DNA of 64,000 nucleotides from Leptotrichia shahii (GTDB taxonomy: Bacteria > Fusobacteriota > Fusobacteriia > Fusobacteriales > Leptotrichiaceae). Where the stretch lies: contig NZ_AP019827.1 in assembly GCF_008327825.1 (NCBI RefSeq), forward strand, positions 620,001 through 684,000, written 5' to 3'. Position numbers and translations under genes: made by a program. Positions 41,190 to 63,142 of the stretch are shown piece after piece; positions within the stretch are counted from its first letter, which is position 1, and every line of letters begins with the position of its first letter. Under the pieces are notes generated by a model that searched no databases, was not told the origin of the DNA, and saw nothing but the letters and a program-made list of their open reading frames with translations.

Positions 41190-41458
41190 AGTCATACTAG
41201 CCGGGGAGTTAGCGGTGCCCTGTATCTACAACCCGCTTTAGTAGAGGTGACGTCAAATTTGAGGGAAGTTTTAGTGTCAACGTCTTATTTTAAAAGTGTT
41301 GAGAAAATAGTCCTGTATTGTAGAGGGCTAGCGAAATGTGTCAGGTCGGGAACGAAGCAGCACTAAGTTAGTTTCTTTAGGTTTACAGGGTAGCTGTTTT
41401 TGAGCTTTTAGATTAAGAAACGGATGGTAGAATGTTTTCGAGAATTTGACGTATGACT
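41190..41458 (+). ncRNA. ffs: Signal recognition particle RNA, long form with Alu domain
   Basis: The 269-base RNA is close to the long Bacillus-type scRNA. Its Alu domain matches the known pattern (GGGGAGTTAGCGGTGCCCTG, then ACAACCCGCTTTAGTAGAGG). The domain IV hairpin reads TGTCAGGTCGGGAACGAAGC followed by AGCA, with a GGAA tetraloop. The first eight bases AGTCATAC are fully complementary to the last eight GTATGACT, closing the RNA. TTTTTATTTTTT follows. It binds Ffh for cotranslational targeting. Confidence 0.92.
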
Positions 41459-59511: not shown

Positions 59512-59581
59512 TTTTTTGTTCATAAAATCTAAATCATTAATTTTGTTAATGGTATCATTAAAAACTTATATATTTGATATA

Positions 59582-59610
59582 TTGATTTTGTATTATTTTT
59601 CTGCTATAAT
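59582..59610 (+). promoter_or_regulatory. Promoter of the arg operon leader
   Basis: TTGATT (59582-59587) and TATAAT (59605-59610) are separated by 17 bp. The start near 59617 would give a leader of about 270 bases before argC. Confidence 0.75.
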
Positions 59611-59653
59611 AGATTTATCAAAAAATAAATTAAAATGATAGGAGGAAAAGATT

Positions 59654-59728
59654 ATGAAAATGATAAGAAGGATAAGGGATAATAAATTTGCACAATTTAA
59701 TTATAAACCCTTGTCAGATGGTGTATAA
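59654..59728 (+). CDS. Candidate Arg-codon leader peptide of the arg operon (24 aa)
   Basis: AGGAGG (59640-59645) is 8 bases before the ATG. The peptide begins MKMIRRIRDNKF and ends KPLSDGV. Three of the first eight codons are Arg (AGA, AGG, AGG). It lies within the leader of an arginine biosynthesis operon and is followed by mutually exclusive hairpins, the usual plan of amino-acid attenuation. No other role is apparent for such a short ORF. Confidence 0.6.
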   Translation: MKMIRRIRDNKFAQFNYKPLSDGV

Positions 59729-59794
59729 TCATTTTTATAATGGATTCCTGTTTTACATAAAAATTTTAGTTTTGCCAATGACTTTTGGGTTGTT

Positions 59795-59859
59795 GGCTCT
59801 TTGTTTTTATATACAATTTGTATAATTTTATTTAGAGCCTGTAAAAAGGGCTTTTTTTT
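59795..59859 (+). terminator. Attenuator: terminator and competing antiterminator before argC
   Basis: The terminator is AGCC (59836-59839) paired with GGCT (59849-59852), extended by T-G, with a T-run after. The competing pairing is GGCTCT (59795-59800) with AGAGCC (59834-59839), enclosing a palindrome ATACAA-T-TTGTAT (59811-59823). Both use the same AGCC segment, so they cannot form together. Confidence 0.6.
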
Positions 59860-59884
59860 ATAAAAAAGTAGGGAGATGGTAATT

Positions 59885-60934
59885 ATGATAAAAGTTGGAG
59901 TTATTGGAGCGACTGGGTATGCTGGGCAGCAGCTTGTATGGATATTGAATAATCATAAAGAAGTGGAGATTAAATTTATTTCTTCGTATTCAAATGCTGG
60001 AGAGAATATAAGCGAGGTGTATGAAAATTATAAAAAATATTTTGAGAAGAAATTGATTTCGCAGAAAGAGGCTGAAGAGAGTTTTGGAAAAATTGATGTG
60101 CTGTTTTTGGCATTGCCACATGGATTGTCGGAAAAAATGACTAAGAAGGCACTTGAAAATGATGTAAAAGTTTTTGATCTGGGAGCAGATTTCAGGTTAG
60201 ATGATTCAGAAACTTATGAAAAATGGTATGATGTTAAACATGAGTTTCCTGAAATTAATCAGAGTGCAGTTTATGGCTTACCTGAACTGAATAGGGGAAA
60301 AATAAAGAAAAGTCAAGTCATTGCTTGTCCTGGCTGTTATCCGACATCGGCGATACTAGGGACAGCACCACTTTTGAAAAATAAAGTTGTAAAAACAGAT
60401 AAAATAATAATTGATTCAAAGTCTGGGGTTTCAGGAGCAGGGAGAAATGCGAAAATAGATACAATTTTTACAGAAGTAAATGAAAGTTTTAAGGCTTACG
60501 GAGTTTTAAAGCATAGACATACGCCTGAAATAAAGCAGGAAATGGATAAACTGTCAGAAAGCGATATAAACGTAGTGTTTACTCCGCATTTATTACCGAT
60601 AAATAGAGGGATTCTTTCAACAATTTATTTGGAAGTGAATGAGGAATGGAAGGAGAAGTTGACTGAAGAAAAAATTTATGAAATTTATAATGAGTTTTAT
60701 AAAAATGAGTATTTTATAAGGGTTACTGAAAATTTGCCCGAGATAAAAAATGTAAAAAATAGCAATATTTGTGAAATTGGTGTCCGTTATGACTCGAAAA
60801 CTGGGAATATTATTGTAATTTCTGCGATTGATAACCTTATAAAAGGTGCAGGAGGTCAAGCTGTTCAAAGTATGAATATTATGTTTGAGCTTGAAGAAAA
60901 TATGGGACTGGAATTTTTATCAATGTATATATAA
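59885..60934 (+). CDS. argC: N-acetyl-gamma-glutamyl-phosphate reductase
   Basis: I chose the ATG at 59885, 9 bases after GGGAG; an ATG at 59876 overlaps that site. The 349-residue enzyme has the NADP-binding start KVGVIGATGYAGQQLV and the active Cys in VIACPGCYPTSAILG. It also has the family blocks SKSGVSGAGRNAK and HRHTPEIKQEM. It makes N-acetylglutamate semialdehyde in arginine synthesis. It is the first structural gene of argC-argJ-argB-argD. Confidence 0.96.
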   Translation: MIKVGVIGATGYAGQQLVWILNNHKEVEIKFISSYSNAGENISEVYENYKKYFEKKLISQKEAEESFGKIDVLFLALPHGLSEKMTKKALENDVKVFDLGADFRLDDSETYEKWYDVKHEFPEINQSAVYGLPELNRGKIKKSQVIACPGCYPTSAILGTAPLLKNKVVKTDKIIIDSKSGVSGAGRNAKIDTIFTEVNESFKAYGVLKHRHTPEIKQEMDKLSESDINVVFTPHLLPINRGILSTIYLEVNEEWKEKLTEEKIYEIYNEFYKNEYFIRVTENLPEIKNVKNSNICEIGVRYDSKTGNIIVISAIDNLIKGAGGQAVQSMNIMFELEENMGLEFLSMYI

Positions 60935-60960: not shown

Positions 60961-62181
60961 ATGAAAATAATAAAAGATGGGACAATTACTAATGTTAAAG
61001 GGATAAAGGCGGCAGGAATATCGGCACAGTTGAAAAAAAGCGGGAAAAAAGACTTGGCATTGATTTACAGCGAGAAAAAGGCAGTTTCAGCTGCGGTTTT
61101 TACAAAAAATCTTGTAAAGGCGGCTCCGATTATTTTAAATATGGAAAATATAAAAAATGGAAATACACAGGCGATTATTGTAAATAGCGGGAATGCTAAC
61201 TCGTGTACTGGAGAAACTGGACTTGAAAATGCTAAAAAAATGACAGAATTTGCAGCAAATGAGCTGGGACTCAAAAAAGAGGAGATTTTGGTACAGTCTA
61301 CTGGAATTATTGGGGTTCAGCTGGATATGAAAAAGATAGAAACTGGAATTAGTAAAATTTGCAAGGAAATATCGGAAAATGGGGGAAATGATGCGGCAAC
61401 TGCGATTATGACAACGGATACTTTTACAAAACAAATTTGTGCAGAAATTGAAATAGATGGAAAAACAGTAACAGTTGCAGGAATGGCAAAAGGTTCTGGG
61501 ATGATACATCCAAATATGGCTACAATGCTTGCTTTTACAGTAACGGATGTAAATATTGAAAAATTGTTGCTGCAAAAAATATTTTCCGAAATTACAGATA
61601 GCACATTTAATATGATTTCAGTTGACGGAGATACAAGTACAAATGACATGGCTTGTGTTTTGGCGAATGGACTTGCGGGAAATGAGAAAATTGTTGATGA
61701 AAATACGGATGGATATATTGAATTTAAAGAGGCATTGCATAAAGTAAATGAGGAATTGGCTAAATTAATTGCAAAAGATGGCGAAGGTGCTACAAAATTA
61801 ATTCAAGTTACGACAAATGGCGCAGAAACTCAGAAAGATGCAAAAAAAGTTTCAAAATCAGTTATCACTTCAAGTCTTTTCAAGGCGGCAGCTTTTGGTG
61901 GTGATCCTAATTGGGGAAGAATTTTGTGTGCGGTCGGATATTCAGAGGCAAATTTAAAAACTGATAAAGTTAATATTTTTCTAAAAGCTGGAAATGATAT
62001 GGTTCAAGTTGCGAAAAATGGGATGGCACAAGATTTTGATGTTCCGATGGCTGAGAAAATTTTGAAGGCTGAAACGGTTGAAATAATTATTGAGTTAAAT
62101 GATGGGGAGTTTGAAGCGACTGCTTGGGGATGTGATTTGAGTTATGATTATGTGAAAATTAATGCGGAGTATCATACTTAA
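60961..62181 (+). CDS. argJ: Glutamate N-acetyltransferase / ornithine acetyltransferase
   Basis: I chose the ATG at 60961 after AAGGAG; a GTG at 60952 lies within the ribosome site. The 406-residue proenzyme has the autocleavage site KGSGMIHPNMATMLAF, where the Thr becomes the nucleophile of the beta chain. Further blocks are QTVNSGNAN-like IIVNSGNANSCTG and GDPNWGRILCAVGYS. It recycles the acetyl group between N-acetylornithine and glutamate, which makes a cyclic arginine pathway. Confidence 0.95.
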   Translation: MKIIKDGTITNVKGIKAAGISAQLKKSGKKDLALIYSEKKAVSAAVFTKNLVKAAPIILNMENIKNGNTQAIIVNSGNANSCTGETGLENAKKMTEFAANELGLKKEEILVQSTGIIGVQLDMKKIETGISKICKEISENGGNDAATAIMTTDTFTKQICAEIEIDGKTVTVAGMAKGSGMIHPNMATMLAFTVTDVNIEKLLLQKIFSEITDSTFNMISVDGDTSTNDMACVLANGLAGNEKIVDENTDGYIEFKEALHKVNEELAKLIAKDGEGATKLIQVTTNGAETQKDAKKVSKSVITSSLFKAAAFGGDPNWGRILCAVGYSEANLKTDKVNIFLKAGNDMVQVAKNGMAQDFDVPMAEKILKAETVEIIIELNDGEFEATAWGCDLSYDYVKINAEYHT

Positions 62182-62251: not shown

Positions 62252-63142
62252 ATGATTTCAAATTTAGATAAAGCAAAAATTTTAGTAAAGGCGTTGCCGT
62301 TCATAAAAAAGTATCATAGTAAAACGATTGTAATTAAATATGGCGGAAGTGCGATGGTCAATCCTGTTGCACGTGAGCAGTTTATTCAAGATGTAGTTCT
62401 TATGAAGTATGTTGGGATAAATCCTGTGATTGTGCATGGTGGCGGGCCTGAGATAAACGAGATGCTTCAAAAAATTGGGAAAGAGAGCAAATTTGTTGCA
62501 GGAAATCGTGTAACTGATGAGGAAACTATGGAGATTGTGGAAATGGTGCTTTCAGGGAAAGTAAATAAAGGAATTGTTGCGGATATTAATAAATATGGCG
62601 GAAAAGCTGTTGGACTTAGTGGAAAAGATGGGAATATGTTGTTTGTTGAGAAGAAGTTTGTTGAAGTTGATGGAGAGAAGGTTGATATTGGGTTCGTTGG
62701 AGAGATTAAGGAAATTAATACGGAAGTTATAAAATTGTTGGAGTCGAATGATGTGATTCCTGTGATTTCGTCTATTGGAGTTGATAAAAATGGTCAGACA
62801 TACAATATTAATGCAGATTATGTGGCAGGTGCGATTGCTGGGAAATTACAAGCTGACAGATTGGTATTTTTGACGGATGTTGATGGAATATTGCTTGATT
62901 ACCATGATAAGCAGACACTTATTGATGAAATTGATGTGAAAAAAGTGAATGATTTAATCGAGCGAGGAATTATTAGTGGTGGAATGTTGCCAAAAGTTAT
63001 GACTTGCTTGAATGCAATTGAAAATGGAGTGGAAAACGTCGTTATTCTAAATGGAAAATTGGAACATTCTATGATTCTTGAGTTGTTTACGGTTGAGGGG
63101 GCTGGAACGTTAATTAGAAAGCATGAAAATTCAAAAAGCTAA
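62252..63142 (+). CDS. argB: N-acetylglutamate kinase
   Basis: The 296-residue amino-acid-kinase-fold protein has IVIKYGGSAMVNP, VIVHGGGPEINEMLQKIG, KFVAGNRVTDEETMEIVEMVL and NADYVAGAIAGKLQADRLVFL. The kinase phosphorylates N-acetylglutamate, the usual feedback point. The long N-terminal helix (LDKAKILVKALPFIKKYH) is of the type that forms arginine-sensitive hexamers, so allosteric inhibition by arginine is possible. AAGAAAGGAAAAAT precedes the ATG. Confidence 0.96.
   Translation: MISNLDKAKILVKALPFIKKYHSKTIVIKYGGSAMVNPVAREQFIQDVVLMKYVGINPVIVHGGGPEINEMLQKIGKESKFVAGNRVTDEETMEIVEMVLSGKVNKGIVADINKYGGKAVGLSGKDGNMLFVEKKFVEVDGEKVDIGFVGEIKEINTEVIKLLESNDVIPVISSIGVDKNGQTYNINADYVAGAIAGKLQADRLVFLTDVDGILLDYHDKQTLIDEIDVKKVNDLIERGIISGGMLPKVMTCLNAIENGVENVVILNGKLEHSMILELFTVEGAGTLIRKHENSKS

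Follow-up and report, generated by a model that had tools for sequence, protein, structure and literature searches.

The enteric trp and his operons are controlled by ribosome-mediated transcription attenuation at a leader peptide, and the textbook list of amino-acid attenuators comprises those for Trp, His, Leu, Ile/Val, Thr, and Phe. For the arginine pathway, control is commonly attributed to ArgR. In Salmonella, consecutive Arg codons in the orf34/speF leader sense arginine supply via ribosome pausing (PMC6386406), and in S. aureus the rbfL leader contains rare AGA and AGG codons, served by a scarce tRNA-Arg(UCU), on which ribosomes pause when arginine is limiting (PMC13009471). A published description of an arginine biosynthetic attenuator was not found in a search of open-access full texts. 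Here we describe a leader ahead of the argCJBD(F) genes of Leptotrichia shahii that is, on comparative and folding evidence, very probably a ribosome-mediated transcription attenuator specific for arginine. It is part of a 64,000-nt stretch of contig NZ_AP019827.1 (positions 620,001 to 684,000), hereafter the window, within which all coordinates below are numbered; all features of the leader and operon are on the forward strand.

Transcription of the leader is predicted to start from a sigma-70 type promoter with a TTGATT box (59582-59587), a 17-nt spacer, and a TG-extended TATAAT box (59605-59610), and this promoter can be aligned across the 17 genomes of the family that possess argC. An imperfect palindrome, AAAAACTTATATATTTGATATATTGATTTT, at 59560-59589 abuts and overlaps the -35 box and is partly conserved in family genomes, making it a possible operator for some regulator. 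The approximately 270 nt between promoter and argC contain a Shine-Dalgarno (SD) sequence, AGGAGG (59640-59645), with a G-rich counterpart in relatives, a 24-codon leader ORF encoding MKMIRRIRDNKFAQFNYKPLSDGV (59654-59728), and two terminator-like hairpins. The putative control codons, AGA AGG ATA AGG (Arg Arg Ile Arg), span 59666-59677, placing Arg at codons 5 (AGA, 59666), 6 (AGG, 59669), and 8 (AGG, 59675). The first structural gene, argC (59885-60934; PF22698/PF01118), has in-frame ATG codons at 59876 and 59885, of which the latter is probably the start, because an SD sequence AGGGAG lies at 59870-59875 and the proteins of relatives begin MIKV. It is followed by argJ (60961-62181; PF01960) and argB (62252-63142; PF00696), and then on the same strand by argD (PF00202), which runs past the end of the window, and, beyond the window, by a 180-amino acid ORF and argF (PF00185). 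The ORF between argD and argF (L105:5485-6027, just outside the window) has no Pfam match. Elsewhere, the window contains a large bacterial SRP RNA at 41192-41456 (Rfam RF01854, 146 bits).

Taken from a single sequence, the leader ORF is weak evidence, because at least three Arg residues in codons 2 to 9 are found by chance at 6 of the 341 SD-preceded starts in the window; conservation makes that evidence strong. The argC gene is present in 17 of 33 genomes of the same family, with ArgC proteins 70-100% identical (two weak matches, one in G019 and the other an additional match in G002, were left out of this count). Upstream of argC in all 17, and 205-310 nt ahead of the argC match, is an SD-preceded short ORF with an invariant core, AGG ATA AGG GA, encoding Arg-Ile-Arg-Asp/Glu (RIR[DE]). 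Conservation of the ORF and its Arg codons in relatives had been named beforehand, in a first-pass annotation of this DNA, as a test that could refute the attenuator reading, and the reading passed it in the family and also in other Fusobacteriota, which keep Arg codons. The codon preceding the core is AGA, AAA, ACT, or GTT, and the remainder of the peptide is variable, as are its length and stop codon, ranging from a stop at codon 14 in L009 to 34 codons in L013. The 14-nt motif ARAAGGATAAGGGA is missing from the family genomes that do not have argC. A phylum-wide spread of this motif was considered and rejected, as the non-argC matches inspected fall in longer or unrelated reading frames, which leaves the motif itself restricted to the family.

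The choice of Arg codon in the leaders is also distinctive. AGG accounts for 18 of 35 leader Arg codons in the family and for 29 of 39 in other Fusobacteriota, compared to 16% of Arg codons in ORFs of the window, 6 of 63 in argC genes of the family, and 28 of 97 in other argC genes. The tRNA-Arg anticodons read in this genome are UCU, UCG, and ACG, with no CCU anticodon among the tRNA loci read, a subset of those in the genome. Enrichment of AGG, where the only tRNA-Arg seen for AGA and AGG is that with anticodon UCU, suggests tuning of the leader for sensitivity.

The complete set of pairings in the leader consists of A:B, B:C, terminator 1 (T1, formed by C:D), D:E, and terminator 2 (T2). Segment A (GATAAGGG, 59671-59678) lies within the Arg codons and pairs with CCCTTGTC at 59708-59715, which is the first part of segment B (CCCTTGTCAGATGGT, 59708-59722); the second part, 59713-59722, pairs with C (GUCA.GA.UGGU with GCCA.A.UGAC). 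Because C (59774-59783) is also the left arm of T1, whose right arm is D (59788-59797), B:C and T1 are mutually exclusive. Directly 3' of T1 (59774-59797) is the U-rich sequence TCTTTGTTTTT (59798-59808), in which the U-tract is interrupted. The right arm of T1 is in turn joined to the left arm of T2 by the pairing D:E, between GGCTCT (59795-59800) and AGAGCC (59834-59839), and T2 itself (59834-59859) is composed of AGAGCC-TGTAAAAA-GGGCTTT, a hairpin at 59834-59854, followed by a T-run. The first-pass annotation had described the promoter, the ribosome site, the 24-codon ORF with Arg at codons 5, 6, and 8, the hairpin at 59834-59854 with its T-run, and the GGCTCT/AGAGCC pairing that shares its left arm, all of which are present as described. 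Its list of elements was correct as far as it went but missed T1, the A:B pairing that involves the Arg codons, and the link between the ribosome and GGCTCT/AGAGCC; this D:E pairing is a real antiterminator by sequence and fold, but it is the second of two, released only after B:C opens the upstream hairpin.

Comparison of relatives, in whose argC leaders the same annotation had proposed that covarying stems be sought, yielded conserved stems, with covariation in T1. The eight pairs of A:B are intact in each of the 11 distinct leaders (100% of alignment cells), with changes on the 3' strand only and every change preserving a pair, although the invariance of the A strand by itself fits a constraint on codons or on RNA alike. 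Of the ten pairs of T1, three are changed in both strands somewhere among the 11 leaders (L019 does not align), the alignment is 95.5% paired versus 32-55% in slid controls, and its covariation score is matched by 9 of 500 shuffles. Eighteen leaders, drawn from both families, have a counterpart of B:C, mostly directly 3' of, or overlapping, the strand that pairs with A. Leader by leader, B:C duplex energies are mostly non-significant against shuffles; under one uniform rule, duplexes with a leader's own partner are better than species-swapped ones (p=0.0043; p=0.013 in an earlier form of the test in which offsets were set by hand). Counterparts of D:E exist in L012-L018 and, in weaker form, in L019, and were not evident in the subgroup L020-L022 in this leader comparison. 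A second hairpin, differing in sequence, precedes argC in the family leaders examined.

The dependence of these pairings on ribosome position was modelled by omitting the RNA under a stalled ribosome (13 nt, counted from the first base of the A-site codon); pair probabilities were then computed. For a transcript ending just after T1, the model gives T1 a probability of 0.95-0.98 while the A site is at codons 1-3 and of 0.61 at codon 4. The value falls to 0.16-0.27 at codons 5-9, rises to 0.42-0.54 at codons 10-14, and stands at 0.98 from codon 15 onward to the stop; for the Arg codons themselves, whichever of them occupies the A site, T1 drops from 0.98 to 0.16-0.25. The predicted window of antitermination therefore begins with the first Arg codon. 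In the full leader, stalling at codons 5-14 leaves T1 and T2 at no more than 0.07 each (0.03-0.07 for codons 5-9), with B:C and D:E at 0.9 or above, reproducing in the model the earlier proposal that stalling at Arg codons favors the antiterminator. In the full leader, T2 reaches only about 0.3 when the ribosome stands at the stop codon, and repression would therefore rest on T1, with its interrupted U-tract.

Equilibrium folds of the near relatives L009-L011 switch in the same manner as the window leader, and L008 is intermediate. In L009, a near-identical relative that has kept the Arg codons, the leader ORF ends at codon 14, and a ribosome terminating there would go on favoring antitermination until it is released. 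For L012-L013 and most of L014-L023, the equilibrium fold of the finished leader retains T1, and mostly T2, despite a stalled ribosome; switching in these leaders would therefore have to be kinetic. Consistent with this, in transcripts truncated directly behind the left arm of T1, sequestration of C in 22 of 22 leaders is 0.00-0.43 without a ribosome versus 0.39-0.88 with a ribosome stalled at the Arg codons. Summed over 15 leaders, the stall-dependent difference is 8.2, versus -0.4 (sd 0.9) when the intervening segment is shuffled (0 of 20,000). The folds of truncated transcripts, which are a snapshot rather than kinetics, support a choice made co-transcriptionally.

Sequence, comparison, and folding establish which parts make up the leader, that they are conserved, that the pairings exclude one another, and that the fold changes with the position of the ribosome. 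From these we infer that the leader peptide is in fact translated, that the hairpins terminate transcription, and that the outcome responds to arginine or to charging of Arg-tRNA. In the proposed mechanism, the leader peptide would be translated while RNA polymerase is making the leader. When Arg-tRNA is ample, the ribosome would cross the Arg codons and reach or pass B, or leave and allow A to pair with B; in either case C would be free to pair with D, forming T1, and T2 would form should the polymerase read on. When Arg-tRNA is scarce, the ribosome would halt on the AGA and AGG codons at positions 5-8 and cover A, such that B pairs with C, and D, now freed, pairs with E. Both terminators would be pre-empted, and argCJBD(F) would be transcribed.

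More distant members of the Fusobacteriota have argC leaders that are unlike the window sequence, yet also consist of Arg-rich ORFs followed by terminator-like hairpins. Their peptides begin MMIKFLKRTSYTRVN (L092), MMFRISRTRRQIT (L094, similar in L095), MLFRIRRMRRNKK (L096), MLLRNFRIMTK (L099), and MLLRHFRIINK (L100). Tandem units of leader and terminator are found about 190-540 nt upstream of argC in L097, L098, and L101, from two other genera; in one example, a unit beginning MLIRSSRMRKIK and its hairpins are followed by a unit beginning MLRESFRGSRS with hairpins of its own. Such leaders also precede other genes of the pathway. In the large-genome genus of the window's family, argG is preceded by a short Arg-containing leader of its own (L192, L200, L189, and L195, with a hairpin seen in L192), for example one beginning MRNNFRIMF, and in another genus a leader beginning MRSRYN[LF]KE with a terminator-like hairpin precedes an operon of an argH-like ORF (called by eye), argG, and argC (L214 and L215). 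No such leader was seen before argG in the window's own genus, and none lies directly upstream of argC in L093 and L102-L104, also Fusobacteriota. A scan of 78 argC loci from other phyla revealed no sign of the same device; ORFs with at least three early Arg residues occur in 16 of the 78, many of them GC-rich, and in none of L108-L112.

These distant leaders bear on two alternative accounts of the conserved core. One is that AGGAUAAGGGA...CCYUURUY is an RNA aptamer or a protein-binding site, riboswitch-like and recognizing arginine or bound by an RNA-binding protein, with the ORF incidental. Eleven nucleotides are invariant in 17 leaders, beyond what synonymous coding needs, and CCYUURUY is constant even as the C-terminal half of the peptide, its length, and its frame vary freely. 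However, the argC leaders of other Fusobacteriota that do not have the motif keep the SD-preceded ORF with Arg codons and the paired switching architecture, and searches of the leader against Rfam returned chance-level matches only, at the permissive threshold as well; a riboswitch or other RNA of a known family was set aside on this ground, and the aptamer account as a whole is improbable. The second account holds that the nascent RIR[DE] sequence acts as an arrest peptide on binding free arginine, in which case arginine itself, and not tRNA charging, would be the signal. The fungal arginine attenuator peptide and SpeFL are arrest peptides that bind their ligand. The invariance of RIR[DE] within the family is in keeping with such a role, as is the precedent of an Arg-Leu-Arg motif in leader peptides for antibiotic resistance whose action depends on ribosome stalling (PMC8632094), but between genera the peptides share only their Arg residues, and arrest at high arginine would cause antitermination amid plenty, the wrong sign for a biosynthetic operon, leaving this account with a very slight chance of being correct.

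Stalling for want of charged Arg-tRNA, the preferred reading, must also be weighed against other regulators. The first-pass annotation had taken T-box or ArgR control as the default guess for this phylum, and neither was borne out. The C-terminal domain of ArgR (PF02863) was found in none of 33 family genomes and in one of 98 genomes of the phylum, by a search that detected it in 8 of 14 well-known genomes used as a control; by the measure of a repressor encoded in the genome, the operon does not belong to an ArgR regulon. It could still be argued that T1 and T2, which are both stable in free RNA, are constitutive tandem terminators, that the ORF is a chance product of AT-rich sequence, and that argC is controlled elsewhere, for instance at the promoter, where the conserved palindrome abutting the -35 box might be an operator. 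This is highly unlikely, given that the leader and its architecture accompany argC throughout the family and reappear in other genera, that the stall-dependent switch falls far outside the shuffles, and that ArgR was not found in 97 of the 98 phylum genomes. Control by uncharged tRNA-Arg through a T-box merits next to no credence. T-boxes do exist in the family, with six matches, of which the two examined (L057 and L061, below the Rfam gathering score) precede an asparagine-synthase-like gene, but no covariance-model match was obtained at the leader even at permissive thresholds and none was found in this genome; the sequence searches thus contradict T-box control and place the leader outside that class.

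Attenuation by Arg-codon stalling may also extend well beyond this operon. We consider it likely, with less assurance than for the window leader itself, that diverse arginine leader-peptide attenuators at argC, argG, and argH-argG-argC, and not ArgR, control arginine biosynthesis throughout the Fusobacteriota, the terminators forming two-stage cascades and the leader units of some genera being duplicated in series. This would amount to a phylum-wide replacement of the repressor, and to the first arginine-biosynthesis specificity for the mechanism. If true, a conserved arginine attenuator across a phylum without ArgR would fill a gap in the control of arginine synthesis there and could serve as a ready sensor of Arg-tRNA charging in vivo, and the single, two-terminator, and tandem-unit leaders form a natural series for the study of attenuator evolution.

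A mechanism that would work as in trp and his attenuation is well supported by comparison and folding. An SD-preceded short ORF lies between the promoter and the first structural gene, and is enriched and conserved for codons of the pathway product (17 of 17 in the family, and Arg-rich in other genera); intrinsic terminators, in the form of two hairpins predicted by sequence and fold, with covariation in T1, precede the first gene; and, in silico, an exclusive antiterminator is tied to the position of the stalled ribosome. In common with the enteric leaders, a short translated ORF would contain control codons for the product amino acid, placed within the 5' strand of the first stem, and the 1:2, 2:3, and 3:4 pairings are exclusive. 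The two-stage layout, A:B/C:D/E:F versus B:C/D:E, resembles that of his. Unlike the enteric examples, the leader described here has arginine specificity, belongs to the Fusobacteriota, and has two terminator-like hairpins in series, with tandem leader units in some genera. Compared to leaders in which Arg codons have been described, the argC leader shares with orf34/speF the proposed use of such codons in a leader ORF as a sensor of arginine supply, but the latter concerns polyamine synthesis and acts through Rho, RNase G decay, and access to the ribosome-binding site rather than a choice of intrinsic terminator (PMC6386406). With rbfL it shares AGA and AGG codons in a leader peptide, but there the outcome of pausing is a blocked ribosome-binding site downstream and repression of a biofilm regulator, with no attenuator (PMC13009471). 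The cysteine leader uORFC-8-2 before cysS is likewise an attenuation candidate from comparative genomics with conserved control codons, but it differs in its amino acid, in its occurrence in alphaproteobacteria, and in preceding a tRNA synthetase gene (PMC8632094). Finally, repression by ArgR/AhrC acts on the same pathway by the same logic, with arginine lowering expression, but does so through a DNA-binding repressor.
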